64,000 bases of DNA from Gordonia sp. (in: high G+C Gram-positive bacteria) (GTDB taxonomy: Bacteria; Actinomycetota; Actinomycetes; Mycobacteriales; Mycobacteriaceae), in assembly GCF_020438995.1 (NCBI RefSeq), contig NZ_JAGQTN010000041.1:48486-112485 (forward strand), written 5' to 3'. This document shows positions 4,191-64,000 of the stretch, piece by piece. The notes beneath the pieces were generated by a model. The model did no database searches and was not told the DNA's origin. It saw nothing but the letters and a program-made list of their open reading frames with translations. The position numbers and the translations under genes were made by a program. Position 1 is the first letter of the stretch. Each line of letters opens with the position of its first letter.

Positions 4191-4250
4191 AACCGGAATG
4201 CGTCGGTGGCCGGTCGTTCCATGTCTCGAAACCCATTGAGACGACAGGAT

Positions 4251-6641
4251 TTACAGTATCCGGTAGTTGCCGTATCTGAGTTCGCCGCCCGCATAGACCT
4301 TGCCACCGCCGAGCACCGCGATACCGGGAGTCGACGTCACCGCCGGAATGGGCATCCGCCACAGCGGGTCGGGACTGCCGGGAGCGAATGTGAGCAGTTC
4401 CAGCCTGCCCGTGGCACCGAAATCTTCCGGCCGGGAAAGTACCGCGAAGCGGGTGCCGTCGGTGCCCATGGGTGTCCCGATCTGCCGGCCGTCGCGCGAT
4501 ATGGCGATGCGTCCGCCGGTACCGTCGTAACAGTCGAACCATTCGAACTCGTTGACCGAGGCTCCCAGCAGTACCTTGGTGCCGTAGCCGTTCACCCAGG
4601 ACGGGCTATCCATCTGATACTGCTTCTGCCACAATACTTTTCCGGTCTGCGGGTCGAATGAGGCGATCAGCTTGCGCGCGGTGTCGAGCAGTATGGGGGT
4701 TGCGGCGACATGACCCGGGATCAGGTTCTCGGTCGGCTGGGCGAGCACCGTCCAGTCGCCCGCGATCTCGGCGGTGGGAATGCCCCGCGCGTCGAAGAAC
4801 GTCAGCTTTGCGGGTGTGGAGGCATCGTCGGAATTCCTGCGCACGACAAAACCATTCAGGAATGGCTGCCACGACTCGGCGGACCCGCCAGTGGGAAAAT
4901 TATGGACGATCGTACCGTCGGTGATCCGCCTGAGGGTGGCCTCACCGGTCGATACGGGTTGGACGGCGACGACGGGTGAGCCGCTCACCAGTGGATAGGC
5001 TTCCGGTACAGCCATCCCTTCGAGGGTGAAGTTCTTTCCCGCCGGCGATCCCGCGTACATGGAGTTGTTCTCCGAGGCGATCACGTAGTCGTCGCCGGTC
5101 ACCATGAACTGACTGCCCGAGACGTTCACCGTATCGACGGCTCCGGTGACGACGTCGACAAGAAACGTATTCGGATCGTCGGCGCCCGCGGTCTCGTCGT
5201 AGGCGAGACATATCATCCGCGTCGACAAGGTGTCGCCGAGCTGCCTGCACCGCCGGACACGACTGTTACTGCTGAGTGTGATTGTGCGGATGGTCGTTCC
5301 GTCGGCGGCGTCGAGGACGCTGAGAATCGCCGTGCCCGAATCCACATTGCTGGCCGCAATCGCATAGTTGCTCGTACCGCCGATGATTCCGTGATTATCC
5401 TGGCGGGCGGTGGACAGCACCTTGGGTGACCATCTCCAGATCGGTTCGGTGCGTGGCATTTTCAGGTCGGCGAGGGTGGCTCCGACCGCCAGGCGATTAG
5501 CCGCCGGACCGGCCGTCCCGTCGTCGTCCGGTCCGTCGTCGGGCCACAGCAGCCACGTGCCGACGGACCCGGTGACGAGAACCAGCACTACCACGAGTGC
5601 ACCGATCAGCAGTGCTCGTCGCCGCGCGGGTGGGGTCGGGGTGGAGAGTTCGGGCGGCGGTGTCGGCGCGAAACGGGTGGTGATCTGTTCCGGGAAGAAC
5701 TGTGTCGCCGGTTGTTCTGGGGTCCGATTCAGGCCCTGGGGTGATATTCCGCATTCCTGTACGGTCGGTACTTCAGGCGTGGGCGGCTCGTGTAGTGCCG
5801 CGATGAGTGCGGCTGCGAAACTGCGGTTGTCGGGAAAGCGCTGCGCCGGGTCCTTCGCCATGGCTCGGGTCAGTACGGCGTCGACGGCGGCCGTAGCCCG
5901 TTGGGGGGAGCGTTCGGTCGCCATCGGGATCGGATCGTGGACGTGAGCCATGGCGATGGCCGGGACGCTGGTTCCCGAGTAGACCTCGGTACCGGTGACC
6001 AGGGTGAACGCGGTGCAGGCGAGTGAGTATTGGTCGGCCCGGGAATCGACGGCGTGGCCCTGGAGCTGTTCGGGTGCGGCGAAGGCGACGGTCCCCATCG
6101 CGATTCCGGTGCCGGTGAGCCGGGTGGCATCGTCGAGTACATGTGCGATACCGAAATCGGTGAGCAGGGCGACGGGGACGGCTCCGGGTCGTGATGTGTT
6201 CCGGGTGTTCTGGAGGAGGATGTTGGCGGGTTTGACGTCGCGGTGGGTGAGTCCGTGGTCGGCGGCGGTGTCGAGGGCATCGGCGATCTGCTCGATGATC
6301 TGGCCGATCGCTGCCAGGGGCAGCAGATTGCCGGCCGTGTGTTCGCCGAGGTCGTGTCCGTCGATGTACTCGAGGGTGATCCACAGGCGGTCGTCGTACT
6401 CGCCGCGGTCGTGGACGCTGACGATGGACTGATGCCGCAGTGCGGCAACAATATCGGCTTCACGTTCGAAGCGCCTGCGGTAGCTGGGATTGTCGGATAG
6501 ATCCGCGGAGAGGATTTTGAGGGCGTCGTGACGTGGCAGTCGTGGGTGGCGGGCCAGATACACTCGGCCCATGCCGCCGACACCGAGTTCCCGCTCGATG
6601 GTGTAGCCGGCGAATACGTCGCCGGGGTGAATTCTGCTCAC
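4251..6641 (-). CDS. Membrane Ser/Thr protein kinase with extracellular PQQ-like sensor domain (copy A)
   Basis: Starting at GTG 6641 the protein has 796 residues. Residues 1-290 form a PknB-type kinase: glycine loop LGVGGMGRVYLA (19-30), catalytic Lys about 42, HRDVKPAN loop at 133-140, DFG at 162-164 and the APEQLQG segment at about 189. A short Pro/Thr linker leads to one transmembrane helix (about 343-365). The outer C-terminal domain has beta-propeller-like, PQQ-type repeats (for example LIASFDPQTGKVLWQ) and a conserved cysteine pair around RRCRQLGD. It should phosphorylate cytoplasmic proteins in response to an extracellular ligand. It is the last of three tandem paralogues. The longer open frame to 6830 is rejected because both paralogues begin at the same MxxLxPGDVFAGY block. 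Confidence 0.9.
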   Translation of the reverse strand: MSRIHPGDVFAGYTIERELGVGGMGRVYLARHPRLPRHDALKILSADLSDNPSYRRRFEREADIVAALRHQSIVSVHDRGEYDDRLWITLEYIDGHDLGEHTAGNLLPLAAIGQIIEQIADALDTAADHGLTHRDVKPANILLQNTRNTSRPGAVPVALLTDFGIAHVLDDATRLTGTGIAMGTVAFAAPEQLQGHAVDSRADQYSLACTAFTLVTGTEVYSGTSVPAIAMAHVHDPIPMATERSPQRATAAVDAVLTRAMAKDPAQRFPDNRSFAAALIAALHEPPTPEVPTVQECGISPQGLNRTPEQPATQFFPEQITTRFAPTPPPELSTPTPPARRRALLIGALVVVLVLVTGSVGTWLLWPDDGPDDDGTAGPAANRLAVGATLADLKMPRTEPIWRWSPKVLSTARQDNHGIIGGTSNYAIAASNVDSGTAILSVLDAADGTTIRTITLSSNSRVRRCRQLGDTLSTRMICLAYDETAGADDPNTFLVDVVTGAVDTVNVSGSQFMVTGDDYVIASENNSMYAGSPAGKNFTLEGMAVPEAYPLVSGSPVVAVQPVSTGEATLRRITDGTIVHNFPTGGSAESWQPFLNGFVVRRNSDDASTPAKLTFFDARGIPTAEIAGDWTVLAQPTENLIPGHVAATPILLDTARKLIASFDPQTGKVLWQKQYQMDSPSWVNGYGTKVLLGASVNEFEWFDCYDGTGGRIAISRDGRQIGTPMGTDGTRFAVLSRPEDFGATGRLELLTFAPGSPDPLWRMPIPAVTSTPGIAVLGGGKVYAGGELRYGNYRIL

Positions 6642-6663
6642 CGGGTGAACCTTGACGGCTGCA

Positions 6664-9261
6664 TCAGATGATCCGACCGTCGGCGAAGTCGAGGCCGCCG
6701 CCGGCGTACACCCTGCCGCCGCCCTGGACGGAGATGCCCGGATTCTCGCGAGTCGTGGGAATCGGCATGCGCCACAACGGGTCCGGACTTCCCGGTGCGT
6801 ACACCAGCAGTTCGAGCTTGCCGGCACCACCGAACTTCTGCGGCCGGGACAGTACCGCGAACCGGGTGCCGTCGGTACCCATCGGTGTTCCGGCCTGAGT
6901 TCCGTCCTGCGGCACGACTATCGGGCCGCCGTTGCCGTCGTAGCAGTCGAACGATTCGTACTCGTTGGCCGATGCGCCGAGCAGGACCCGGGTTCCGTAG
7001 CCGTTGATCCACGCCGGGGTGTCCATCCGGTAGTTCTTCTGCCACCGCACCTTTCCGGTCTTGGCGTCGAAGCCGGCGATCAGCTTGCCGGAGGAACTGA
7101 GCAGGATGGGTACCGCGGCGACGGCGCCAGGGATCAGGTTGTCGGTCGACGGGTTGGGTAGCGTCCAGTCGCCGCTGATCTCGGCGGTGGCGCCCCCCTG
7201 GGCGTCGAAGAATGTCAGTGTCGGTGCCGTGGGTGAATCCTTGCGTACGACAAAGCCATTCAGGAACGGTTGCCATGATGCATCCGCGGAGTCCGCGGCG
7301 AAACTGTAGACCACCTTTCCGTCGGTGACCCGCCTGAGAGTGGTGGTGCCATCGGACTGTTGCTGCACCGCGACCACCGGAGACCCATACACCGGTGGAA
7401 ATGCTTCGGGCACAAGAACATCGTCAAGTGCGAAGCTCTTGCCGGCGAACGTCCCCGAGTAGACGGCGCCGGCGGAGGCGACCACAAAATTGTCGCCGGT
7501 CACCGCGAATTCGGCTCCGGAGGTGTCGACCTTCTTCGCGGAGCCCGCGTCGAGGTCGACCAGGTAGGGGTTGGTACCGCCCCCGGCGGGGTCGGCGGCA
7601 AAGCACACCATGCGCGCCGACGATGTGTCGCCGAGCTGCCGGCAGCGCCGGACGCCAAGGTTCTGGTCGCTGAGCGTGATCGTGCGGACGGTTGTACCGT
7701 CGTCGGCGTCGAGAACCCCGAGAACCGTTGCACCCGAATCAGATTTGCTGACCGCTACGGCATATTCGCTTGTGCCGCCGACGATTCCGACGTCGACCTG
7801 GGCTCCGGAACCCACTGCGGCGGGTTTCCACGTCCAGGCAGGCGCGGTACGTGGCGAGGTCAGGTCGGGCAGCAGCACACCGGCCGTGGGGCCGCTCGCC
7901 GACGGGGAGGTGCTGCCGCCGCCGGAGGTGAGCAGCCGCGCACCGACCACGCCGGCTACGAGCAGGAGCACGGTGACGAACGCACCGAGCAGCAGTGTGC
8001 GGCGCCGACCGGGCCGGACACCGCGCGGGGGATCGGTGGGGTGAGCACGGGCGGTACCGGGCGACAGGGGCTGCGCACGCCGGGTGGGGATCTGGCGTTC
8101 GTCGGACGCATCCGTGGCCGGCCTGGCAGGGGCATCCGGGTATGTCGCGGGCCGGGTGGCTGTCACTGGCCGGGTGCGTGGCGGCACGGACGAACCGGTC
8201 TGTCCTCCGGGCCGCGGGGTCCGGGCCGGCTGGTCGCGAGTCGGATAGTCGCGGGTGGGGGGCTGCCGACGGACGGTGGGTGCCCCGGCGTCACGGTGCG
8301 GGGCGGATGCCGCGGGTCGGGGTCCGCGCGCGGGGAGCGTTGGCCCGTGTGCCGGCCTCGGTATGCCGGGAGCGGTGGCGGGGGTGCGTAGCGTCGGCGG
8401 TGCCTGCGACTCCGGCAGCGCGGTGGCCGGTGCCTCGCGCAGTGCGGCAGTCAGGGCCCGGGCGAACGTGCGGTTGTCGGGAAAGCGGTGGTCGGGAGCC
8501 TTGGCCAGAGCTCTCGTCAGCACCGGGTCCACGGTGGCCGGCACCCGCCCGGGGCATCGTTTGGTGGCAACCGGGATGGGGTCCTTCACGTGCGCGATTG
8601 CGATGGCGGCGGCACTGTTGCCCACATAGACGTGCGTTCCGGTGAGCAGGGCGAACGCTGTGCAGCCCAGTGCGTACTGATCGGTCCGCGAATCGACGTC
8701 CAGACCCTGGAGCTGCTCGGGTGCGGCGAATGCGACGGTGCCGAGCGCGATCCCGGTGCCGGTGAGCACGGTGTTCTGGTCGTTCGCGTGCGCGATGCCG
8801 AAGTCGACGAGGAGCGCCTGGCCGTCGGTGTCGAGGAGGATGTTCGCCGGTTTGACGTCGCGGTGGGTCAGGCCGTGTGTGGCGGCGACGTCCAATGCGT
8901 GCGCGATCTGCTCGATGATGCGGCCGATGGTGGCCAGGGGCAGCGGATCGGTACCGACGTGTTCGCTGAGGTCGTGGCCGTCGACGTATTCCAGGGAGAT
9001 CCACAGCCGGCCGTCGGCCTCACCGCGGTCCAGGACCCGCACGATCGACGGATGACGCAGTGCGGCAACAACATCGGCCTCCCGCTCGAAGCGCCTGCGA
9101 TACCGGGGATCCTCGGACAGATGTGGTGCGAGAACCTTGAGCGCCTCGAACCGGGGCAGCCGCGGGTGCCGGACGAGATACACCTCGCCCATGCCGCCGG
9201 CACCGAGCTCACGCTCGATGGTGTAGCCGGCGAACACGTCGCCCGGATTGAGGCTGGTCAC
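6664..9261 (-). CDS. Membrane Ser/Thr protein kinase with extracellular PQQ-like sensor domain (copy B)
   Basis: This 865-residue paralogue of its neighbours has kinase motifs GAGGMGEVYL, HRDVKPANILL and DFGIAH, a Pro/Arg-rich linker (about residues 285-425), a transmembrane helix (LLLGAFVTVLLLVAGVVGA) and a C-terminal propeller-like domain with the shared cysteine pair (RRCRQLGD... VCFAAD) and FDCYDGNGG. It ends 22 bp before copy A starts. The GTG start at 9261 is preceded by TAAAGT and 7 nt (complement at 9269-9274), a leaderless-promoter pattern that copy A also shows in slightly altered form, suggesting that each duplicate kept its own promoter. Confidence 0.9.
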   Translation of the reverse strand: MTSLNPGDVFAGYTIERELGAGGMGEVYLVRHPRLPRFEALKVLAPHLSEDPRYRRRFEREADVVAALRHPSIVRVLDRGEADGRLWISLEYVDGHDLSEHVGTDPLPLATIGRIIEQIAHALDVAATHGLTHRDVKPANILLDTDGQALLVDFGIAHANDQNTVLTGTGIALGTVAFAAPEQLQGLDVDSRTDQYALGCTAFALLTGTHVYVGNSAAAIAIAHVKDPIPVATKRCPGRVPATVDPVLTRALAKAPDHRFPDNRTFARALTAALREAPATALPESQAPPTLRTPATAPGIPRPAHGPTLPARGPRPAASAPHRDAGAPTVRRQPPTRDYPTRDQPARTPRPGGQTGSSVPPRTRPVTATRPATYPDAPARPATDASDERQIPTRRAQPLSPGTARAHPTDPPRGVRPGRRRTLLLGAFVTVLLLVAGVVGARLLTSGGGSTSPSASGPTAGVLLPDLTSPRTAPAWTWKPAAVGSGAQVDVGIVGGTSEYAVAVSKSDSGATVLGVLDADDGTTVRTITLSDQNLGVRRCRQLGDTSSARMVCFAADPAGGGTNPYLVDLDAGSAKKVDTSGAEFAVTGDNFVVASAGAVYSGTFAGKSFALDDVLVPEAFPPVYGSPVVAVQQQSDGTTTLRRVTDGKVVYSFAADSADASWQPFLNGFVVRKDSPTAPTLTFFDAQGGATAEISGDWTLPNPSTDNLIPGAVAAVPILLSSSGKLIAGFDAKTGKVRWQKNYRMDTPAWINGYGTRVLLGASANEYESFDCYDGNGGPIVVPQDGTQAGTPMGTDGTRFAVLSRPQKFGGAGKLELLVYAPGSPDPLWRMPIPTTRENPGISVQGGGRVYAGGGLDFADGRII

Positions 9262-49756: not shown

Positions 49757-50806
49757 CTACCGGAGGATCTCCTCGATCGAGGAGGCGGTCACGGCCCGCA
49801 CCGTCCATGTGCTGAGCTGATCGGTATCGGTGCACGCATTGATCCGGTCGCGGGATGCGTCGTCGACGGCGATGTTCTTCGTCGCGAGCATCGTCAGAAG
49901 TGTCTTGGCCTGATTCGCCACCTGCCGTTCGAGTCCTTGCTCGAGTCCTTGCTCGAGTCCTCGTTCGAGTCCTCGTTCGAGTCCTTGCTCGAGTCCTTGC
50001 TCGAGTCCTTGCTCGAGTCCTCGTTCGAGTCCTCGTTCGAGTCCCTGTTCGAGTCCCTGTTCGAGTCCCTGTTCCAGACCCGCTCGCAGACCCTCCCGGA
50101 GCCCTTCCGTCTGAGCTTCGGCTTTGAGTTTGTCGATGAGTTCGCGGCCCCAATCGGTTTCCGCGACCCATGCGTGGGATTGGGTTGTCAAAACGACCTC
50201 CAGTTGCGCTAGGACATGGGCAGGGAAGACGGTCTGTGTGATCGCAGCGTACATCCGATGATTGACGATGTCAGGGTCGAAAACCGCTGGAAGTGCACGG
50301 AGAACATCCCAGTTGCCGGGATGCGTCATTGCCGAGAGCATCGCCAGATCGGGATCGGCGCGCGCGGCCGCGGTATTGGTGATGGGAGGTATCCGGGATG
50401 GACCCAGAACTATCGGGATGAAGGAGCCGTGTCCGGTCTCGACTGGTGTGGCGGCCCATCGTGCTGTTCTCTCGTCGGGACACAGGACGAGCAGGTAGAC
50501 GGCATGTCGGAGGCGGCTCCGCAAGGCGGCCGCGTAGTGCGGCCAACTGAACCGCTTGTCGTTGTCGGGTCGCCGTTGGTTCTCGACGATGAGACCAGCC
50601 ACGGGGTCGCCTGCGGAGTCGCGAAGGACCAGAACGGCGTCGGCGAGGAGCTGTTTGGGGACGGCATCGGTCAGATCCGAGTCGTCGACGGTGACACTGT
50701 CGTGTTCGGGCACCGTGACCTGGGCGAGGCCGGTGAGCAACTCGACCCCGAACTCCGCGCGGTTACGGATCAGTTCAAGGGGCGCTTCGTGTTCCGGTGA
50801 CGGCAT
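49757..50806 (-). CDS. PD-(D/E)XK-like nuclease protein (Rpn-related) with GLEQ repeats
   Basis: The 349-residue protein resembles a large actinobacterial family with a predicted PD-(D/E)XK nuclease core: ADAVLVLRD, GLIVENQRRPDNDKRFSWPHY and LLVLCPDERTARWAA supply the likely D...ExQ and K/R region. Rpn relatives promote recombination. The C-terminal third is a run of GLEQ/GLER tetrapeptides forming a charged helix, then QVANQAKTLLTML. TACCAT (complement of 50814-50819) ends 7 nt before the ATG. Cellular role is unknown; defence or recombination are options. Confidence 0.65.
   Translation of the reverse strand: MPSPEHEAPLELIRNRAEFGVELLTGLAQVTVPEHDSVTVDDSDLTDAVPKQLLADAVLVLRDSAGDPVAGLIVENQRRPDNDKRFSWPHYAAALRSRLRHAVYLLVLCPDERTARWAATPVETGHGSFIPIVLGPSRIPPITNTAAARADPDLAMLSAMTHPGNWDVLRALPAVFDPDIVNHRMYAAITQTVFPAHVLAQLEVVLTTQSHAWVAETDWGRELIDKLKAEAQTEGLREGLRAGLEQGLEQGLEQGLERGLERGLEQGLEQGLEQGLERGLERGLEQGLEQGLERQVANQAKTLLTMLATKNIAVDDASRDRINACTDTDQLSTWTVRAVTASSIEEILR
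49928..50088 (-). repeat. 12-bp coding repeats (GLEQ/GLER)
   Basis: About 13 copies of cgagtccttgct / cgagtcctcgtt run head to tail within the nuclease-like gene. In-frame copy-number change would lengthen or shorten the helix without a frameshift. Confidence 0.85.
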
Positions 50807-50944
50807 GGAACAAATGGTATGGCCCTGTTCGCGCATCGGGTCGCGTGAGCAGGGCCTGTCGGCACATCTGTGGATAAGTATTCAGTTGTACACAGCCAGC
50901 GGTCGGCACACGCAGCCGCAGTCAGGTGGTCGACAATGGCAGTC

Positions 50945-55011: not shown

Positions 55012-55382
55012 GAAACTCTCCTTCATGTGGACGCGAAAGTGTGACTCGCTGATCCGGTTATGCGGACGGCCGGCAACGATCCGGAGTCCGCGTGGGTGGG
55101 TCGATATCGAGGTAGAGCGGCCTCGCCGCCCTCTGCTACCTCAGGAAACCTGTGCAGCTTGTCGATGCCGAGGACTATTGCATGAGGGTCTGACAAACCG
55201 GTTCGGCACTTGTTCTCGACCACCAGGGCCGGCGGCCTGCACAACGATGACCTGGGCAAGACCTGGTGTCGATATCGATTGCTGTTAAGTGGCCTTAACA
55301 GGAATCACGCATCCGAATGTCACGCCAGACGGCTACTGTCGTCGACGGAAGGAATCGGTGCGACCACGAGGAGGTGACCGGC
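55012..55382. other. Intergenic region before the modification locus
   Basis: No gene is firmly supported; a 78-codon minus-strand frame (55023-55259) has a VVENK-like stretch but no start signal and may be a remnant. A perfect palindrome CTGTTAAG-TGGC-CTTAACAG at 55282-55301 lies 80 bp before the HTH protein start and is a candidate operator for that protein. Confidence 0.45.
55282..55301 (+). promoter_or_regulatory. Palindromic operator candidate CTGTTAAG-N4-CTTAACAG
   Basis: Perfect 8-bp arms separated by TGGC, AT-rich relative to the surroundings, immediately upstream of an operon whose first gene encodes an HTH protein. Confidence 0.45.
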
Positions 55383-57305
55383 GTGAGCATGTTGACGATG
55401 CAGGACATCGCGACCCTGGCGAGGGTATCCCGCCCTGCCGTCAGCCAGTGGCGCAAACGCACCACGGTGCGCGGCGAGGTCATGCCCTTTCCCGCGGTGG
55501 TCGAGCGCGTCGACGGCGTCGACCGCTTCGACCGCACCGACGTCGTCGACTGGTTGCAGCGCACCGGTCGCGGCAACAACCAGGCCGATCAGGCCCTGGA
55601 TGCGGCAGCTTTCACCGCCCCGGACGAGGCACGTTTCGGCGATGTCGTCACCCTGCTGGCGCTGTACGCGCTGTCGGGGGCCGATTTCGGGTCGATGTCG
55701 CACAGCGATCTCGTCGACACTGCCCGCGCCGCCGACCCCGACGACGAGTTGCTGCTTCGCGAGGTGCGCAGGCTCTCGGTCACGGGGGATGTGCTCGGCT
55801 ACGTCGATGATCTGATCGGCGCCTCGTACGGCCCCGCCGACGCTCTCACCCGGCTGGAGACCAGCAGAGTCGGACGGGAGCTCGGCCTGCGTGATCTGAC
55901 AGCCGACGCGGTCGACGTGGTGCGCACAGTGGTCGGCGCCGCACGCACCCATATCGGTGGTGACGGTGTGCCGCTGATCCCGGCCGGCGATCCGGCGCTT
56001 GCCCTATCGGTGGCCGCCCCCGAAGGATCGCTCGTGGTGCATGCACGCGACGCCGCCACCCGTGAATTGCGGCGTCGCGCACTCATTCTGGGTGTCGACG
56101 TCGACTCAGTGGCGTACCGCCCGACGGTGACGGTGTCGTCGCTGGTGGGGCTCACCGATCGGGAGGCCCTCGACGGCCTCGACGACGTCGTGCTCGATCT
56201 CGCGCCGGGCTGTGCGGCGGTGGTGCTGGGCCCGGCCAGGGAACTGACCGATCATCTGGCCGGGTCCCTGCACACGCGGCGCCTGCAAACCCTGGGTGTC
56301 GGCAATCTGGTTGCCGCGCTGCGTCTTCCGCGTGGATTGTGGCGGGAGGCGCACCGTCAGTGTCTGGGTGTGTGGGTATGCCTGGGCGGGGCGGAGGCCG
56401 GCGAGGTGGCGACGGTCGATCTGGCGGCACCGGGTGAGTCAGCCGATCTCGCCGCCGATATCGCTGCGGCCCTTGAGGATTCCATCGTCGGTGGTGGCCT
56501 GGCCGGGTCGCGGCGGGCCTACCGTTACGCGCGGTCGCGTGAGTTACAGCGGATCCGCACTTCGGGCACGCTCGTTCCCCGTGGCACGAGTGCCCCGCGC
56601 CTGCTCACCGACGACCCGTCGCAGTACACCGATCGGGTGCACGCGGCAACCCTGGTGACATCGGCGCTGCTGCCGCCGCTCGACGTGCCGATCGGTATGT
56701 CGCCGGGCCGATTCCGGTTGCAGCAGTATTCTTTTCACGAACTATGCGAACGTGGTCTCATCTCGGTGTATTCGGGGAGCCGGTTCAATGCCGACCATCA
56801 CGATCCGGCCGGAACGGTCCCGGTACTGCCCGATCGCACGCTCATGCTCGACCCGTTCGACGCGGCCCAGCTCTACCCGAAGGCCCGCCGCACCGACCCC
56901 GGCGACGTCGTGTTCACGGAAAAGCCGCTGCCGCGGGCCTGGATCGACCCGCACGGCGGCTCACTGGTCGCATCCCCCGCCAAACTCCTGCGCATCGGCC
57001 CCAACGCCGCATTCGGTCCGAACCTGCTGGCCACCGCCGTCAACACGCTCGCCGAACCGGGTTCCGAATGGCAGACGTGGAGCATCCCCAACCTCACCGA
57101 CGACGACGCCCGCCACCTCGAAACCGTCCTGGCCCAGGTCACCGGCTACCGCACCGAGGCCGAAGCCAAGGTCCGCGCCGCCCACGATCTGGCGACAGCC
57201 CTGATCAACGGCGTCGCCGCCGGTGCTGTCACCCTGGACACCGCCGACACCACGACCGGAATCGAGGTAACCACCCACACCGCCCGACCCGCAGACGGAC
57301 CCTGA
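55383..57305 (+). CDS. HTH protein with degenerate N6-methylase core and HsdS-like C-terminus
   Basis: The 640-residue protein starts with a helix-turn-helix of the kind found at the front of actinobacterial N6-DNA methylases (MQDIATLARVSRPAVSQWRK, then RFDRTDVVDWLQ). Residues about 175-340 follow the order of a methylase fold (VVLDLAPGCAAVVLG, GNLVAALRLPRGLW, CLGVWVCLGG), but the SAM motif DPxCGSGG and the catalytic NPPF/Y are absent. The C-terminal part (about 460-640: PGDVVFTEKPLPRAW, GSLVASPAKLLRIG, W-SIPNL, EAEAKVRAAHDLATAL) resembles a type I specificity domain. GGAGG ends 8 nt before GTG 55383. It is followed by hsdM and hsdS. It may be a DNA-targeting or regulatory pseudo-methylase. 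Confidence 0.65.
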   Translation: MSMLTMQDIATLARVSRPAVSQWRKRTTVRGEVMPFPAVVERVDGVDRFDRTDVVDWLQRTGRGNNQADQALDAAAFTAPDEARFGDVVTLLALYALSGADFGSMSHSDLVDTARAADPDDELLLREVRRLSVTGDVLGYVDDLIGASYGPADALTRLETSRVGRELGLRDLTADAVDVVRTVVGAARTHIGGDGVPLIPAGDPALALSVAAPEGSLVVHARDAATRELRRRALILGVDVDSVAYRPTVTVSSLVGLTDREALDGLDDVVLDLAPGCAAVVLGPARELTDHLAGSLHTRRLQTLGVGNLVAALRLPRGLWREAHRQCLGVWVCLGGAEAGEVATVDLAAPGESADLAADIAAALEDSIVGGGLAGSRRAYRYARSRELQRIRTSGTLVPRGTSAPRLLTDDPSQYTDRVHAATLVTSALLPPLDVPIGMSPGRFRLQQYSFHELCERGLISVYSGSRFNADHHDPAGTVPVLPDRTLMLDPFDAAQLYPKARRTDPGDVVFTEKPLPRAWIDPHGGSLVASPAKLLRIGPNAAFGPNLLATAVNTLAEPGSEWQTWSIPNLTDDDARHLETVLAQVTGYRTEAEAKVRAAHDLATALINGVAAGAVTLDTADTTTGIEVTTHTARPADGP

Positions 57306-57473
57306 GCCCAAAGCGACGAAGGAGCTTTCCCTATCGCAATCGTGACCGGCAACACCGTGGTCTCATCTTGATCCCTGAGGCCGAAGCGACGAAGGAGCGA
57401 GGGTCACGAAGGGTCCGGCGACCCAAGGCTCCCAAACCAACCACCCATAACCGCAAAGAGGAACCCCCACCCC
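57306..57473. repeat. Spacer with direct repeat before hsdM
   Basis: AAGCGACGAAGGAGC occurs at 57311-57325 and 57384-57398, each preceded by CCTGAGnCC, giving a 73-bp period. I recall similar sequence as a dispersed element in related genomes. A possible hsdM promoter is not distinct. Confidence 0.55.
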
Positions 57474-59099
57474 ATGCCCCCCGGCCAAAAACAGCCCCCC
57501 GCAACCCCTTCGACGATGAAGGAACTCAAGGACACCCTGTGGAAGGCCGCCGACAAACTCCGCGGCTCGCTGTCGGCGAACCAGTACAAGGACGTCATCC
57601 TGGGCCTGGTGTTCCTCAAATACGTCTCCGACGCCTACGACGAACGCAGAGAAGCGATCCGGGCGGAGCTGATAGCCGACGGCATGGACGACGACCAGAT
57701 CACCGAACTGATCGACGACCCGGAGGAGTACCAGGGCTACGGCGTGTTCGTGGTCCCCCCGATCGCCCGCTGGACGTATCTGGCCGAAAATGCCAAAGGC
57801 AAACCGGCCACCGACGATCAGCCGGCCAGGAACGTAGGCGAGCTGATCGACGAGGCGATGGACGCGGTAATGGCCGCGAACAAATCGCTACAGGGCACCC
57901 TGCCCCGAATCTACAACCGCGACAACATCGATCAGCGCCGCCTCGGTGAACTGATCGACCTGTTCAACAGCGCCAGATTCTCAAGGCAGGGCGAACACAA
58001 GGCCCGCGACCTGATGGGCGAGGTCTACGAATACTTCCTCGGCAATTTCGCAAGGGCCGAAGGCAAACGGGGCGGCGAGTTCTTCACCCCCCGCAGCGTC
58101 GTGCGGGTCATCGTCGAAGTCCTCGAACCCAAGAAGGGCCGCGTCTACGACCCATGCTGCGGTTCGGGCGGCATGTTCGTGCAGACCGAACAGTTCATCT
58201 ACGAACACGACGGCGACCCGAAAGACGTCGCCATCTACGGCCAGGAAGCCATCGAAGAAACCTGGCGGATGGCCAAGATGAACCTCGCCATCCACGGCAT
58301 CGACAACAACGGCGTGGGTTCGCGCTGGGGCGACACCTTCGCCCGCGACCAACACGCCGACGTCCAGATGGACTACGTCATGGCCAACCCCCCGTTCAAC
58401 ATCAAGGACTGGGCCCGCAACGAGGACGACCCCCGCTGGCGCTACGGCGTCCCCCCGGTCCGCAACGCCAATTACGCCTGGCTGCAACACATCCTGTACA
58501 AACTCGCCCCCGGCGGCAAAGCGGGCGTGGTCCTGGCCAACGGCTCCATGTCGTCCAACTCCAACGGCGAAGGCGACATCCGCCGCGAAATCGTCGACGC
58601 CGACCTCGTATCGGCCATGATCGCCCTCCCCACTCAATTGTTCCGCTCCACCGGAATCCCGGTCTGCCTCTGGTTCTTCGCCAAAGACAAGACAAAGGGC
58701 ACCCAAGGTTCGGAGGACCGTTCCGGCCAGGTCCTGTTCATCGACGCCCGCGACCTCGGCTACATGGTCGACCGCGCCGAACGCGCCCTCTCCGACGACG
58801 ACATCGTGCGCATCGGCGACACCTACCACGCCTGGCGCGGCTCTAGTTCTGCTGTGGCCAAGGGTATCTCGTACGAGGATGTCCCCGGCTTCTGCAAGTC
58901 CGCTTCGTTAGCCGAGATCGCCGCCGCCGGCTACGCCCTCACCCCCGGCCGCTACGTCGGAGCCCCCGAAGTAGAAGACGACGGCGAACCCATCGCCGAA
59001 AAGATCGCCCGGTTGAAGACGGAGTTGTTTGCGGCGCTGGATGAGTCAGCGCGCTTGGATGTTGTGGTGCGGGAGCAGATGGGGCGGGTTCATGGGTGA
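57474..59099 (+). CDS. hsdM: Type I modification methylase subunit HsdM
   Basis: The 541-residue protein has the HsdM N-terminal domain (MKELKDTLWKAADKLRGSL, LGLVFLKYVSDAY), SAM motif I (VYDPCCGSGGMF, Asp226) and catalytic NPPF at residues 305-308, so it should be an active N6-adenine methyltransferase. It works as M2S with HsdS. ATG 57474 has GAGGA upstream at a long spacing; ATG 57516 is an alternative. HsdS starts 8 bp before its stop. Confidence 0.93.
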   Translation: MPPGQKQPPATPSTMKELKDTLWKAADKLRGSLSANQYKDVILGLVFLKYVSDAYDERREAIRAELIADGMDDDQITELIDDPEEYQGYGVFVVPPIARWTYLAENAKGKPATDDQPARNVGELIDEAMDAVMAANKSLQGTLPRIYNRDNIDQRRLGELIDLFNSARFSRQGEHKARDLMGEVYEYFLGNFARAEGKRGGEFFTPRSVVRVIVEVLEPKKGRVYDPCCGSGGMFVQTEQFIYEHDGDPKDVAIYGQEAIEETWRMAKMNLAIHGIDNNGVGSRWGDTFARDQHADVQMDYVMANPPFNIKDWARNEDDPRWRYGVPPVRNANYAWLQHILYKLAPGGKAGVVLANGSMSSNSNGEGDIRREIVDADLVSAMIALPTQLFRSTGIPVCLWFFAKDKTKGTQGSEDRSGQVLFIDARDLGYMVDRAERALSDDDIVRIGDTYHAWRGSSSAVAKGISYEDVPGFCKSASLAEIAAAGYALTPGRYVGAPEVEDDGEPIAEKIARLKTELFAALDESARLDVVVREQMGRVHG

Positions 59100-60327
59100 G
59101 GTAACGACTCTAGGCACGCTGGCAGATGAGGGTGTCCTCGAATTGGGTGATGGCTATCGCACCAAGCGTACGGAACTCGGCGACGAAGGGTTCCGTATTC
59201 TCCGTGTTGCGGACATGGAAGACTGGGCCGTACATGCAGACGGCCCGGACCACGTCCGAGAGGAGTACCGACGTGCGATCGGACCCAAGCTGAGCGAACC
59301 TGGAGACGTGCTTCTGTCAACGAAGGGCACTGTGGGCCGTGTCGCGATCTACCCGGAGGGCTTGGAGCAGGTCGTTTACAGCCCACAGATGTGCTATTTC
59401 AGGGTTCGGCCAGGGAATGGTTTACATCCTCGCTACCTCGCCTACTGGTTCAAGTCATCGGCCTTCGGCCGCCAACGGAGCGATAGATCTGCAAGCACTG
59501 ATATGGCCCCTTATATTTCGCTGCGGGATCTGCGTTCAATTGAACTATCCCTGCCACCGCTGAGAACCCAACGAGCCATCGCCGAAGTCCTTGGCGCTCT
59601 CGACGACAAGATCGCAGCAAACGAGCGGGCGATCGCGGCTGGGAGATCCCTGGCGAAAGCGGAGTTTGAGCAGTTCAGTCGGTCGGTAGGGAGCGAACGG
59701 ATGTCACTTTCCGACCTCGCTGCTCGCGGGTCGCTCGCATTCGGTGACGGGTACCGGACGAAGAAGTCGGAGCTGGCAGAGTCGGGCTATGCGATAGTTC
59801 GGGCCGCTGATGTGAAGGGAGCGAAGCTGACGTTCCCGGATGGGGGAAACTGCGTCTCAACCGATTACGCAAGCAGGATCGGCGCCAAGACTATCCAGCC
59901 GGGTGATCTTGTCATGACGACGAAGGGAACCGTCGGACGAGTTGCGGTGGTACCTAGTCAGGTCGATCTGGCCGTCTACAGCCCACAGTGTTGCTACTTC
60001 CGGGTAGAGGACGCGAGCGGTCTTGACTGGGGCTACTTTGCCGGCTGGTTCCTCAGCGACGATCCGCAACGCCAGATCGAACCCCTGATGCATAAGAGCG
60101 ACATGGCGCCATACGTCAACTTGAAAGACGTCGGCAGCGTATCGATTCCGGTCCCGGACATCGCGACACAGCAAGAAATCGGAGCGGTTCAACGTCAACT
60201 ACTGGGTCAGGCCCACGCACTCGTGAACGAAAACGCTGCCCTCGCGTATACCCGCGACCAACTCCTCCCTCTCCTGATGTCGGGAAGGATTTCGGTAAAC
60301 AGCATCAACGGTGGTTCACCTGAGTAG
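59092..60327 (+). CDS. hsdS: Type I specificity subunit HsdS with two similar recognition domains
   Basis: The 411-residue protein has two target-recognition domains, each followed by a conserved helix. They are closely related: LGDGYRTKRTEL / FGDGYRTKKSEL, LSTKGTVGRVAIYP / MTTKGTVGRVAVVP, VVYSPQMCYFRV / AVYSPQCCYFRV, STDMAPYISLRDL / KSDMAPYVNLKDV. Each domain reads one half of a bipartite site, so the target is expected to be (nearly) palindromic. It overlaps hsdM by 8 bp. Base composition becomes lower in GC from here on. Confidence 0.92.
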   Translation: MGEVTTLGTLADEGVLELGDGYRTKRTELGDEGFRILRVADMEDWAVHADGPDHVREEYRRAIGPKLSEPGDVLLSTKGTVGRVAIYPEGLEQVVYSPQMCYFRVRPGNGLHPRYLAYWFKSSAFGRQRSDRSASTDMAPYISLRDLRSIELSLPPLRTQRAIAEVLGALDDKIAANERAIAAGRSLAKAEFEQFSRSVGSERMSLSDLAARGSLAFGDGYRTKKSELAESGYAIVRAADVKGAKLTFPDGGNCVSTDYASRIGAKTIQPGDLVMTTKGTVGRVAVVPSQVDLAVYSPQCCYFRVEDASGLDWGYFAGWFLSDDPQRQIEPLMHKSDMAPYVNLKDVGSVSIPVPDIATQQEIGAVQRQLLGQAHALVNENAALAYTRDQLLPLLMSGRISVNSINGGSPE

Positions 60328-60401
60328 CCTGGAATCGTGACGTGTCGACTACCTAACGGTAGGTGGTGGTTTCGTCCCGATCCAAGAGGGAGGAGTATCA
60401 G

Positions 60402-62762
60402 GTGAATCCTGATATTGAATATACGGCCGAATTCGCTACGGCTCTTGACGCGCTGCACAAGGGTCATAGCATATTCTTGACCGGTAAAGCTGGAACAGGT
60501 AAGTCCACTCTGATACGTGACTTCATTGCTACATCTGACGCCCAAGTGTTCGTTACCGCTACCACCGGAATTGCCGCGCTCAATATTGGTGGCGAGACTG
60601 TTCACCGGCTGCTTGGTATGAAACCAGGAACGACTGAGTACGATGTGAATAGCGGCAGCTATCATCCGAAGTCACGTTCGCGGGTTATCAGATCGATTCA
60701 GACCCTGATTATCGACGAGGCGTCGATGTTGAGGGCGGACACCTTCGACATGATTGTCGCAATACTTGAAATGTATGGCCCGCAGCCGGAGAAACCCTTC
60801 GGAGGTGTGCAGCTCGTTCTCGTCGGTGACCTGTATCAGCTCCCACCAGTCGTTCGAGATGAGGAGAAGGACTATTTCCGGACCGTGTACGATTCTCCGT
60901 TCTTCTTCTCCGGCCACCGATATATCCGTGAACTCGTTCCACCGTTCGTCCTGACCAAGGTTTTTCGCCAATCAGGTGACCCTGAACTGACACAGCTGCT
61001 CAACGAAGTACGAGAAGGAGATGCCGCAGGAGGTGTGTGTGATGCGCTGAACCGTCGTGTGATTCCTGACTTCAGTATTCCGAATGATGAGTTCTGGTTG
61101 ACGTTGACAACCACCAATAGGATTGCAGCCGCGCGGAACAGCATGAGGCTCGACGCCCTGGAAGGTGTTTCGTACGAAAGCCATTCCTCAGTCGAGGGCG
61201 ATATTTCGGATGTAGAGGAGCCGAACGATCCCGTCGTGAAGTACAAGGTGGGTGCACAGATCATGATGCTTACCAATGATCCTGCCGATCGGTGGGTCAA
61301 TGGAACGGTCGGCACAATTGTGGCTGTTGATCCTACTGAAGGCGATCGGGTCCTGGTCGAATTCCGAACGGGTGGCACTGCATGGGTAGGTCGACACCGT
61401 TGGGAAACTACACGTCCTAGCGTAGAGGATGGCAGAATTGTGCACCAGGTTGTCGGCGTATTCGAGCAGGTTCCTTTCAGGCTTGCCTGGGCGATCACGA
61501 TTCACAAGAGCCAAGGCCAGACGCTCGATCGGATGGTCGTGGATCTATCGGGGGGTACGTTCAGCGATGGGCAGACTTACGTTGCACTCAGTCGTGCAAC
61601 TTCCTTGGAAGGGATAGTGCTTACTAAGCCTGTTGCGCCGAAGGACCTGAGGACCGACATCCGGGTGAAGAGGTTTCTGTCTCCGCATGACCCTGGTGCC
61701 GTGGAAGCTCCTCGGTGTGCCATATCAGTCTGGACGGTGGGGGCGGACTCGACGTTCGGGGGCAAGGCGCGGCCAGTGGAAATTGGTGTAGCGTTCTCCG
61801 ACGGAAGCAGAATATCCAGCATCGTAAATCCGCAACGAGACCCAGGAGACGCACTGGCGGACTACGGCCTATCGAACGACGACCTGTTGATTGCTCCGAC
61901 GCTGACGGAGGCGTGGTCCGTGATCGCACCTTTCGTTACAGGTTGTACGCCGGTTGGTGCCGACCTGGACCGCGTCGCCGAGATTCTTGACCACGAGGCC
62001 AAGAGACTGGGACAGTCGATTGCATTGCCACTGGGAACGGTAGTGACAATCATGCCAGACGACATTCAACCCAGAACCGCCTTGCAACAGGCAGTTCGTG
62101 ATCTGTATTGGGCATCGTTAGGTCCTGTTGACGACGTAGCCCAGGTCTTCTCGGAGTATGAGGAACGAGGCTCGTCGTCTGGGTACCTCCTATCGCGAGA
62201 CGGGCTGGTACAACCGGAATCGGCCGGGTCCCGAATTTCGGGGAGCCAAGTGGTTCGCGACAGCTTGATTCTGAGCGAAGTGGCTTTGCACAAGCGTCCG
62301 GACGCAGGGTCGATTTCCGAGGATTTCGTGACAGACGGCCACGTCGCCCGCGCTGTAACCGCGCGCCTTCGGAGCGTGGCTGAGGGCGCTGGGCGTCTCT
62401 CGGAGGGGCTTATCGAGCGGCTGGACCGCGTAGAAGCGCTCGTGAGATCGCCGCTCCGGGATGCGACCGATCTCATGGCACCTTGTCTTGCGGAAGTGTT
62501 GAGGCCCGGCGCGAGAGTATGCTTTACCGGCAGCTACGTTGATCCAAACGGGGAGGTGGTGAGCAAACGGGATCTGGAAGCACTTGCCGGCAGGAGCGGC
62601 TTGACGGTGGTCAAGGCTGTGACCAAGAGTAGATGCGATGTGCTTGTAACCGCACAGATAGGGTCTCAGTCAAGGAAGAGTCAGGACGCGAAGAAGTACA
62701 ACAAAGCAATCGTCGCGACCGGAGAGTTCCTTGACTGGGTTTCGGAAGTAGAGGAAAGGTAG
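60402..62762 (+). CDS. Pif1-like helicase with degenerate exonuclease-like region and BRCT domain
   Basis: The 786-residue protein starts at GTG 60402, with GGGAGGAG 6 nt upstream. Residues 1-430 are a Pif1/RecD-type SF1B helicase: Walker A GKAGTGKST (from about 28), Walker B LIIDEASML (about 101), GDLYQLPPV, and C-terminal motifs WAITIHKSQGQTLDRM and VALSRATS. Residues about 435-600 look like a DnaQ-type exonuclease (PVEIGVAFSDG, TPVGADLDRVAEILDHEAKRLG), but the DxE pair is missing. The C-terminus (about 700-786) is a BRCT domain beginning GARVCFTGSY. It is low in GC and lies 74 bp after hsdS. Role unknown; DNA processing in defence is likely. Confidence 0.82.
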   Translation: MNPDIEYTAEFATALDALHKGHSIFLTGKAGTGKSTLIRDFIATSDAQVFVTATTGIAALNIGGETVHRLLGMKPGTTEYDVNSGSYHPKSRSRVIRSIQTLIIDEASMLRADTFDMIVAILEMYGPQPEKPFGGVQLVLVGDLYQLPPVVRDEEKDYFRTVYDSPFFFSGHRYIRELVPPFVLTKVFRQSGDPELTQLLNEVREGDAAGGVCDALNRRVIPDFSIPNDEFWLTLTTTNRIAAARNSMRLDALEGVSYESHSSVEGDISDVEEPNDPVVKYKVGAQIMMLTNDPADRWVNGTVGTIVAVDPTEGDRVLVEFRTGGTAWVGRHRWETTRPSVEDGRIVHQVVGVFEQVPFRLAWAITIHKSQGQTLDRMVVDLSGGTFSDGQTYVALSRATSLEGIVLTKPVAPKDLRTDIRVKRFLSPHDPGAVEAPRCAISVWTVGADSTFGGKARPVEIGVAFSDGSRISSIVNPQRDPGDALADYGLSNDDLLIAPTLTEAWSVIAPFVTGCTPVGADLDRVAEILDHEAKRLGQSIALPLGTVVTIMPDDIQPRTALQQAVRDLYWASLGPVDDVAQVFSEYEERGSSSGYLLSRDGLVQPESAGSRISGSQVVRDSLILSEVALHKRPDAGSISEDFVTDGHVARAVTARLRSVAEGAGRLSEGLIERLDRVEALVRSPLRDATDLMAPCLAEVLRPGARVCFTGSYVDPNGEVVSKRDLEALAGRSGLTVVKAVTKSRCDVLVTAQIGSQSRKSQDAKKYNKAIVATGEFLDWVSEVEER

Positions 62763-62769
62763 ATAGAGG

Positions 62770-63324
62770 GTGTTCTCTTATGTCGTGGTTGTCAACGCCG
62801 GCGAGGACCGGGTAATTTCTTGGCAGGTTTCGGTACGTCCTGAGCCGGTGATGACAAGATTGGTCGGAGCATGGACGTCCGGGCACGTGCCCGCATCGAA
62901 GACCAGCGCTGTACTACTTGCAGGCCAGGGACCGACCCCGGAATCGGTGATGGAGATGGAGGTTTTCCAGTTTGAAGAATGCTGGAAGGTGGTACTCGCT
63001 GAACAGCATCGGTTGGAAACATTGAACACATTGTCACTGACGAAGTCCGGCGCGCCGCGGGCACCCATTGAATGGTCGATGATCCCCGATGTTCTGACCT
63101 TCGATACAGCTTTCCAGACCCTTCCTGGCGTTACAGATGACCCAGACATTGCATACACCCTGGGGATCGCGCGGTGGGTGCAAAGCCTCGCGGATGCTTG
63201 GGCTGAGCTTGAGACGATCAGGACCAGTCGGGACCACCTCCGTGGTGAAACTGACCATCCTCGGACGTTTCCCGGTGCTCCGGGGCTGGCCGAAGCCGTG
63301 TGTAGCAGCGAGTCCGTTTGCTGA
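62770..63324 (+). CDS. Hypothetical protein, 184 residues
   Basis: GTG 62770 follows the helicase stop by 7 bp, so it is probably in the same transcript. The protein begins MFSYVVVVNAGEDRVISWQV and continues with a beta-rich part (LVGAWTSGH, SAVLLAGQG) and a helical C-terminus (YTLGIARWVQSLADAWAELETIR). No catalytic motif, signal or membrane segment is seen. Minus-strand frames over the same stretch look like shadows. I do not recognise the family. Confidence 0.55.
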   Translation: MFSYVVVVNAGEDRVISWQVSVRPEPVMTRLVGAWTSGHVPASKTSAVLLAGQGPTPESVMEMEVFQFEECWKVVLAEQHRLETLNTLSLTKSGAPRAPIEWSMIPDVLTFDTAFQTLPGVTDDPDIAYTLGIARWVQSLADAWAELETIRTSRDHLRGETDHPRTFPGAPGLAEAVCSSESVC

Positions 63325-63491: not shown

Positions 63492-63696
63492 ATGAGCTAC
63501 GAGCGAACGTCACGAAAAATGTTCGGTGATCTGATCGGAGTTCCTCAAGGGCCACAGCTTCCGGGTCGTCTACGAGATCCTCGGCGCAGAGGGCAGCCGG
63601 AAAATTGTCCGTCAAGGACATTCTCGTATAGTGCCCCAAGGTGAAATTGATATACTAATTTCGCCTTTCCCATCGATTGGATGTAATCTCGATTAG
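63492..63696 (+). pseudogene. Frameshifted HicA-like toxin remnant
   Basis: The frame from ATG 63492 (MSYERTSRKMFGDLI) breaks at about 63536-63540. Reading on in the +1 frame gives EFLKGHSFRVVYEIL, then GSRKIVRQGHSRIVPQGEID and a TAG at 63694. Removing one G from GGAG at 63537-63540 joins them into one protein resembling HicA mRNA interferases (LIxFLKxxGFRxV...GSHxIxR...), although the key GSH histidine is Arg here. Its end overlaps the minus-strand partial gene. It is either dead or a sequencing error. Confidence 0.35.
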
Positions 63697-64000
63697 CACA
63701 CGTGCGGGTGTATCATCGTCGTTTTCTGGCAATCTAGTTTCGCTCAGGATGATCCGCTCCACTCGAGTGGCGAGTGTCTTGAAATCGACATACCTGGGAT
63801 CATCGGAGCTGTACCAGTCCAGCGGTACGCGATCACGTACCGCTTCACGCAACTGTTGAAACCGTTGCCTGAACTGACCTAGATCCGCGAGTAGTGGTGG
63901 GAGTTCCGGCGTTTGAGAAGACAAAAGTGCTTGTCCTGGTTGATAATTGAGGTTGCGAAGCCAAAAACTATCAGACCGGGAGAAGCACCTTGTCGGTGAA
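63655..64000 (-). CDS. C-terminal part of an unknown protein (runs off the window)
   Basis: The minus-strand frame is open from the window edge to the TAG at 63657-63655, with no ATG or GTG. TTG 63924 could start an 89-residue protein, but the frame upstream (SFWLRNLNYQPGQALL) reads like protein, so a longer gene beyond 64000 is more likely. The visible end is helical (LADLGQFRQRFQQLREAVRD) followed by DWYSSDDPRYVDFKTLATRVERIIL and ARVLIEITSNRWERRN. Family not recognised. Confidence 0.5.
   Translation of the reverse strand, partial: SPTRCFSRSDSFWLRNLNYQPGQALLSSQTPELPPLLADLGQFRQRFQQLREAVRDRVPLDWYSSDDPRYVDFKTLATRVERIILSETRLPENDDDTPARVLIEITSNRWERRN

Follow-up and report, generated by a model that had tools for sequence, protein, structure and literature searches.

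To our knowledge, it is poorly known how type I restriction-modification (RM) systems avoid cutting host DNA when they enter a new cell and how their transcription is controlled. Reported regulators of type I loci include RptR and a C protein. RptR heads type I loci; in the part of that report available, it is described as conserved across Gammaproteobacteria and as a protein of 79 amino acids that binds TAGCTA repeats (PMC12255303). In Mycoplasma gallisepticum, the hsd locus has a C protein gene upstream of it (PMC12707154, likewise an excerpt). Among type II systems, M.SsoII and M.Ecl18kI are live cytosine-5 methyltransferases with an N-terminal DNA-binding region that controls their own RM genes, repressing the M gene and stimulating the R gene, and the N-terminal regulator of M.SsoII binds a 15-bp palindrome that the authors found only in SsoII-like systems (PMC6100179, in the sections available). 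As far as the available parts of these sources go, M.SsoII, the Mycoplasma C protein and RptR all differ from a type I regulator derived from a dead N6-methyltransferase, and no account of a pseudo-methylase regulator of a type I system was found in the open-licence literature. Here, we describe a locus in a 64,000-nucleotide stretch of Gordonia sp. DNA (positions 48486-112485 of contig C187 in assembly G000; hereafter the window) which, judged from its sequence, is very likely a complete type I RM system with a pseudo-methyltransferase as candidate regulator of the system itself, probably by activation. We computed the presence of hsdR, contig adjacency, homology, linkage, site conservation, uniqueness of the site core, promoter spacing and a duplicated site before hsdM.

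The locus resembles known type I systems in that the family domains of HsdM, HsdS and HsdR were all found, HsdR being placed by the contig adjacency argued below. It differs from them in a pseudo-methylase regulator candidate of 640 amino acids, a putative operator unique in the genome and a variable cargo slot before hsdR. The helix-turn-helix (HTH) region at the N-terminus of a methyltransferase fold, recognized here by profile only, is shared with M.SsoII and M.Ecl18kI; unlike in those proteins, the body is decayed and of the N6 type, the system is type I, and an intact HsdM is encoded separately. As described in part for C proteins, the regulator gene comes first in the operon and the operator precedes it (PMC12707154); the conserved site before the regulator gene of the present locus is a candidate for such an operator. 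With RptR, as far as its report is available, the likeness lies in a regulator gene that precedes a type I system, in a palindrome as the site of that regulator (a proposed site in the present locus) and in genes between hsdS and hsdR, where DarTG2 is embedded (PMC12255303); identity with RptR was ruled out by the length of 640 amino acids and a different palindrome. The features are as follows.

55282-55301, no strand: palindromic operator candidate CTGTTAAG-TGGC-CTTAACAG, the sole GTTAAG-N4-CTTAAC in the 4.8-Mb assembly
55334-55339, plus strand: -10-like box TACTGT, 32 nt past the palindrome
55383-57305, plus strand: regulator candidate, 640 amino acids, with a winged helix, a decayed N6-methyltransferase and a target-recognition-like C-terminus
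57474-59099, plus strand: hsdM, type I modification subunit, DPCCGSGG and NPPF intact
59092-60327, plus strand: hsdS, specificity subunit with two related target-recognition halves
60363-62762, plus strand: Pif1-family helicase with a BRCT-like C-terminus, judged to be embedded cargo, of lower GC content
62770-63324, plus strand: small open reading frame (ORF) of 184 amino acids immediately 3' of the helicase, weak matches only
63655-63877, minus strand: 3' part of a hypothetical gene interrupted by an insertion sequence, its 5' part on contig C209
63873-63877, no strand: 5-bp target duplication ACTGA, partner at the C209 end
63878-64000, no strand: insertion sequence end at the contig break, with hsdR beyond it, outside the window
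C209:58731-61925, minus strand: hsdR, outside the window

The preliminary description of this DNA had named four consecutive same-strand genes of an RM locus, and all four were recovered as plus-strand ORFs at 55383-62762. Its assignment of HsdM with DPCCGSGG and NPPF agreed with an N6_Mtase domain (E=1e-117) and that of HsdS with Methylase_S (E=4e-22); both appear to be ordinary type I subunits. The reported fall in GC content from hsdS onward was also measured (0.64 in hsdM, 0.59 in hsdS and 0.56 in the helicase gene). The start codon of the regulator candidate is GTG, preceded by GAGGAGG. Within HsdS, the halves share 44% identity over 165 amino acids and both contain GDGYRTK, so that the target may be nearly symmetric.

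The first protein and its place beside hsdM

In Pfam, the first protein gave only a weak match to HTH_17 (E=0.0085), and no match was obtained in NCBIfam. When the profile of its family was aligned with that of four actinobacterial winged-helix (wHTH) N6-methyltransferases, the alignment extended over 604 columns with a score of 251 (E=6e-31). As controls, 30 column shuffles scored at most 23.7, and the HsdR and helicase profiles scored 19.4 and 16.6. The four relatives are of the N6 type according to blastp to HsdM, and DPxxGxG is kept in all of them; motif IV reads NPPW in one and, by eye, EPPF, TPPW and EGPF in the others. In the first-protein family, canonical methylase motifs were absent from 22/22 members first examined, including the window protein. 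The first protein thus appears to be a full-length relative of wHTH-N6-methyltransferases that has lost the canonical catalytic motifs, in a family that spans enzyme-like to decayed members with the window protein at the decayed end. The profile relation bears out the earlier view of an HTH/degenerate methylase in front of the system; the suggestion that the locus might be an epigenetic regulator is replaced by the reading that the first gene probably regulates transcription of the system itself.

Among solved structures, the first protein was closest to an M protein of type I, although this best match was weak (2okc, E=0.021; EcoKI M, 0.16) and a proteasome activator was nearly equal (E=0.022) on another stretch of the protein. 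By eye, the C-terminus resembles a target-recognition domain. A live cytosine-5 methyltransferase was rejected on the grounds of the N6-type relatives and the absence of canonical motifs from the window protein. C proteins are small, and this family was ruled out by the length of 640 amino acids together with the database results given above. MADS (mad1/mad2/mad5) was also rejected: HsdM reached 63.6 of the 720 bits set for MAD2 and HsdS 48 of the 400 bits set for MAD5 by the curated NCBIfam cut-offs, while in PADLOC mad2 (E=1.5e-48) and mad5 (E=1.6e-30) lay below several general type I models and the first protein matched mad1 only at E=0.003.

The wHTH-N6-methyltransferase relatives have settings of their own. 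In L138, L139 and L141 the gene is immediately preceded by a small ORF that is NYN-like by eye and carries a DIEN motif close to its start; in L140 the gene has hsdM and hsdR as neighbours instead. Upstream of these four relatives or of their small upstream ORFs, no clear operator of the kind described below was found, the best site scoring 11/14.

Linkage of the regulator family to hsd genes was examined in 42 full-length loci, one per genome. In all 42, hsdM was the next conserved gene (22 by gene calls and 20 by tblastn), with one or two ORFs in between in L089, L100 and L101. Furthermore, hsdR followed in 20/20 loci with enough sequence, the window's own included; the L087 copy is spread over two reading frames and that of L099 runs off the end of the retrieved sequence, and L096 and L103 were too short to be counted. 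Not among the 42 loci are G680, for which no locus was issued, G156, whose match was weak and partial, the truncated copy of G441, and G013, G112, G125 and G150, which carry the wHTH-methyltransferase relatives; L093, an hsdMSR locus with no called regulator gene, was counted only for cargo. The regulator family was detected in 25/201 near relatives at E values of 0.001 or lower, a few of them through the HTH alone, in 31/397 genomes of the order, distributed over several actinobacterial families, and in at least 4/396 genomes of the phylum, a lower bound from a search that scored three candidates per genome. Among 319 pattern matches in viral contigs, no regulator relative was confirmed.

A palindrome before the regulator gene

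A palindrome was observed about 100 nt before the regulator start in most of the 15 upstream regions first inspected. Scored over the 14 bases of the consensus CTGWTAA-N5/6-TTAWCAG, 31 of the 42 loci reach 12/14, 35 reach 11 and 40 reach 10; the corresponding counts in 2520 shuffled upstreams were 4, 34 and 323. Outside the set used for motif discovery, 21/27 loci reach 12/14. The two arms co-vary among loci (GTTAAG/CTTAAC, GATAAG/CTTATC, GATAAC/GTTATC, GTTATC/GATAAC and GTTTAG/CTAAAC). Among the upstreams of 242 other genes in these loci, scores of at least 12, 11 and 10 were found in 10, 16 and 47, respectively; nine of those 10 sites were the same site seen from the divergent gene and one was a site before hsdM. 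When 474,441 bases were scanned, 16 sites of at least 12/14 were obtained, 15 before the regulator and one before hsdM.

The exact core was also searched in 15 whole genomes. It occurred once in G000, twice each in G158, G142 and G025, and once in each of the 11 others, and by coordinates all 18 sites lay just before the regulator or hsdM. These genomes had been picked because the site was already known in them, so that the test lies in the absence of other exact copies: none was found elsewhere in the 15 genomes, and the reversed-pattern control gave 0 sites in them. In L085, L086, L094, L096 and L098, a homologous divergent gene of 457-474 amino acids borders the candidate operator; no clear Pfam family was obtained for the two members scanned.

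The type of half-site was compared with the winged helix. Half-sites of the GTT type fall in three separate groups on the protein tree, and well-supported branches force three changes, which may be gains or losses alike. At one presumed recognition-helix position, alanine was present in 8/8 loci with GTT-type half-sites and in 1/33 of the others with a site (L156). This position was chosen post hoc, and the association is taken as a lead only.

A regular promoter geometry was associated with the palindrome. A TANNNT box begins 30-32 nt after it in 31/40 loci and 28-35 nt after it in 34/40, with a background outside 28-35 of 0.15 loci per offset and a box at the mirrored distance in 1/40; L166, whose chosen site was a tie that differs from the palindrome seen, was counted as a miss. 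The -35 region matches 3.12 of the 6 consensus bases on average, compared with 2.54 in shuffled sequence. By arithmetic, the palindrome centre falls at about -53 from the expected transcription start.

In the three loci with ORFs between the regulator and hsdM, a second palindrome was found 88-99 nt before hsdM in every case (11, 12 and 11 of 14), whereas the best site before hsdM in 19 other loci scored 10/14. The box spacing in the first set of sites predicts a TANNNT box 30-32 nt after each second site. The prediction held: the box lies at 32, 31 and 31 nt in L089, L100 and L101, respectively.

Proposed activation and its alternatives

The binding of the palindrome, its sign and any part for the dead methylase body are what we infer from the above. 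A dimer of the regulator would bind the palindrome at 55282-55301 through its winged helix, and the bound regulator would activate transcription of itself and of hsdMS; HsdMS would then modify host DNA, and DNA lacking the mark would be cleaved by HsdMSR. Activation is modestly preferred to repression on account of the weak -35 region and of the position of the site, which precedes that region and keeps a fixed distance from the -10 box. It is also conceivable, although we regard this as rather doubtful, that the body with its dead methylase and target-recognition-like part serves as a sensor of unmodified target sites or of free HsdM/HsdS. If so, the signal passed to the winged helix would tie transcription to the protection of the host genome on entry into a new cell.

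Several observations weigh against the proposal. Some operators are weak or were not found (9/14 in L171; 10/14 in L088, L099, L102, L135 and L161), and L097 scores 9/14 by the consensus, although its site is a perfect one of a separate GTTTAG type. The box expected at 30-32 nt is absent from 9/40 loci. The -35 region reaches 4 of 6 in 11/34 loci, compared with 12% of shuffled sequences; being better than shuffled, these promoters may not depend wholly on an activator. Since L100 and L101 are close sisters, the second sites amount to about two independent cases, and in L135 a gap of 803 nt before hsdM contains neither a called gene nor a second site (9/14). Next to a truncated regulator gene in G441 (L137), no hsdM match was found. 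Direct comparison of the first-protein and HsdM profiles gave a weak match, with a probability of 4-5% and an E value of about 0.01, although its score of 30-32 exceeded that of the shuffles, which reached no more than 22.3. Among the 42 members, a partial or decayed motif I is present in six deep ones (L158, L160, L162, L163, L169 and L171; a seventh pattern match, in L151, was located elsewhere by eye and excluded), and DPPF is kept in L170 and L171, so that not every member need be dead. Finally, the join to the contig that carries hsdR, described below, was deduced and not read through the insertion sequence.

One alternative keeps the same operator and the same protein and makes the regulator a repressor, which we consider less likely than activation but a serious contender. 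Both RptR and the Mycoplasma C protein are reported, in the available parts of the sources, as repressors of type I loci (PMC12255303, PMC12707154), and a -35 region somewhat better than shuffled would suit a promoter under repression. On the other side stand the position of the palindrome upstream of the -35 region, its fixed distance to the -10 box and the weakness of the -35 region itself.

Another explanation would make the first protein a structural or specificity subunit of HsdMS and leave the palindrome to some other host factor. The methylase-like character of the protein, its C-terminus resembling a target-recognition domain by eye and its fixed place beside hsdM are in keeping with this, but a host factor would be expected to have further sites, and the 15 genomes contain no other exact core. 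Furthermore, the half-site type changes with the winged helix (alanine in 8/8 versus 1/33, at the post hoc position). We therefore regard this role as improbable. A role of the palindrome as the site methylated by the system, and not as an operator, can practically be dismissed: the palindrome is bipartite and varies between systems, but one or two exact copies in each of the 15 genomes are too few for a methylation site, its distance to the -10 box is fixed, and it is conserved while HsdS diverges strongly (23-58% identity to the window's HsdS in matched stretches at other loci).

Regulation of its own system by the first protein, probably as an activator, thus remains the reading preferred here. 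A methyltransferase relative seems to have been turned into a transcription factor whose private operator occurs once in a genome, and twice if hsdM has been separated from the regulator. As a test case, the family combines a single protein with a site of 20 bp and a promoter whose geometry is predicted, and its members extend from enzyme-like to decayed.

hsdR across the contig break and the hsdS-hsdR slot

Contig C187 stops at 112485, exactly at the window end. When the same genome was searched, an HSDR_N match was found close to the end of contig C209. Read from that end, C209 contains an hsdR ORF of 1064 amino acids at 3996-7190, which is 91.8% identical to the syntenic ORF of the relative G033 and has the complete type I R set of domains (HSDR_N, SWI2/SNF2, T1R_D3 and the T1RH C-terminal domain). 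In G033, a single stretch holds the genes left of the regulator, hsdM, hsdS, hsdR and the right-hand neighbours; its left part is matched by C187 and its right part by C209.

The terminal 120 or so bases of both C187 and C209 belong to one insertion sequence, of which they represent the two ends. Read outward, the flanking target bases are TCAGT in C187 and ACTGA in C209, reverse complements of each other. The other ends of the C209 type carry TCTGA (C116, C6) or TCAGA (C307, C134; variant ends C308, C231), and none of the other insertion-sequence ends seen fits as a partner for C187. Joining the flanks around a single copy of the duplication gave an uninterrupted frame of 201 codons (129 + 72), the other frames giving 17 and 69. 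We infer the adjacency of C187 and C209 from the matching target duplication, the synteny of G033 and the restored open frame, and the absence of hsdR from the locus is an assembly artefact.

The preliminary description had taken the locus for a type I system lacking hsdR, while allowing that the gene could lie beyond position 64000 and naming an intact hsdR downstream as grounds for giving up that view. Such a gene was found there, in the same locus, on C209 across one insertion sequence. An apparently hsdR-less defence locus can thus arise from an assembly break at an insertion sequence. The resulting order is regulator, hsdM, hsdS, helicase, the 184-amino-acid ORF, the gene cut by the insertion sequence, small genes and hsdR. 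Since hsdR lies downstream by about 7 kb plus the insertion sequence, the genes perhaps do not form one transcript.

The gene behind hsdS encodes a member of the Pif1 family (PIF1 domain, E=9e-27; 94.5 bits against a cut-off of 25.9). A profile of this helicase and 13 relatives matched Pif1-like solved structures (best E=1.7e-149); the difference from Pif1-family helicases is an extra C-terminal region with a BRCT-like end. Residues 713-797 match part of an NCBIfam DEDDh-exonuclease model (E=1.3e-5), a part which we take to be BRCT, and residues 653-795 match PADLOC PDC-S48 (E=1.8e-18). The earlier helicase-BRCT assignment therefore stands for PIF1, while its BRCT portion rests on these partial NCBIfam and PADLOC matches, with no BRCT listed in the Pfam scan. 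Nothing on Pif1-BRCT was found in the open-licence literature. In the alignment, residues of about 440-560 resemble, by eye, a DEDDh exonuclease lacking the catalytic acidic residues, in the relatives too; no library match to this stretch was obtained.

We slightly favour a reading of the helicase gene as cargo in the slot between hsdS and hsdR, with a function of its own in defence or repair. This reading is compatible with regulation by the first protein as proposed above. The slot was surveyed in 20 relatives, of which L096 and L103 were too short, leaving 18 with L093 included. The distance from hsdM to hsdR is 1.2-1.4 kb, with hsdS only, in 6/18 and 2.2-12 kb in 12/18; with two further loci that hold only hsdS in the slot, 12/20 relatives overall have extra sequence or genes. 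Among eight slot proteins scanned, seven could be assigned to Pfam families of different kinds (YhgA-like, Schlafen-AlbA_2, IrrE-like, Fic, PIN, DUF1016/YhcG nuclease and DUF6508). The same slot holds the DarTG2 module in E. coli, where the authors, in the part of the report available, suggest a hotspot (PMC12255303). The GC content at third codon positions is 0.61 in the helicase gene and 0.80-0.85 in hsdR and hsdM, in line with the earlier suggestion of assembly by transfer; the helicase region was probably acquired in this way. Near a helicase relative in Aeromicrobium sp. Leaf350, two genes away, lies an AAA_13 gene (L022:12740-15058, minus strand, E=5e-39), and the AAA_13 family includes defence proteins. 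Relatives other than that in L022 have no obvious defence neighbours by eye, without a search by defence models, and the gene may be a displaced housekeeping helicase. In our judgement the gene is embedded cargo that may serve in defence or may be a repair helicase out of its usual place.

The preliminary description had proposed that the helicase replaces HsdR as the effector attacking unmodified DNA and had suggested looking for its co-occurrence with hsdMS, a lack of linkage in other genomes being named as a ground against the proposal. Its gene starts 35 nt after hsdS on the same strand, and parts of the protein match the PADLOC candidate models PDC-S68 and PDC-S48. However, an intact hsdR is present in the same locus, and linkage was missing from both sides. 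The loci of 14 helicase relatives in named genomes, three of them only 7-13 kb long, contained nothing that matched HsdM, HsdS or the regulator of the window; the called genes around these 14 and around a relative in G011 matched none of the HsdM, HsdR and regulator sets, and several of the relatives adjoin apparent housekeeping genes (by eye). Conversely, the called genes of other hsd loci contained no match to the window helicase. The substitution of HsdR by the helicase is refuted by these results, and an hsdR-less locus with the helicase as effector is highly improbable.

Several minor observations were made at these loci. An NYN nuclease-like domain (PF01936, E=4e-10) precedes the rest of the helicase relative in L113 (G011:C62). 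The 184-amino-acid ORF behind the window helicase matches DUF6218 at E=0.009 and one NCBIfam model at E=0.0099. The first 4 kb of C209 from its end hold small ORFs before hsdR, including an HTH/partner pair that by eye resembles a toxin-antitoxin module. The insertion sequence lies at several contig ends (C209, C116, C200, C182, C6, C307 and C134) and has 5-bp target duplications, with flanks that are mostly TCAGA/TCTGA. Elsewhere in G000, two more HSDR_N matches (C293, C223) and four more HsdM-like matches were detected, the contigs concerned being C293, C223, C222 and C141. At 49757-50836 on the minus strand of the window, an ORF contains a long run of LEQGLERG-type repeats toward its C-terminus, possibly a tract of variable length.

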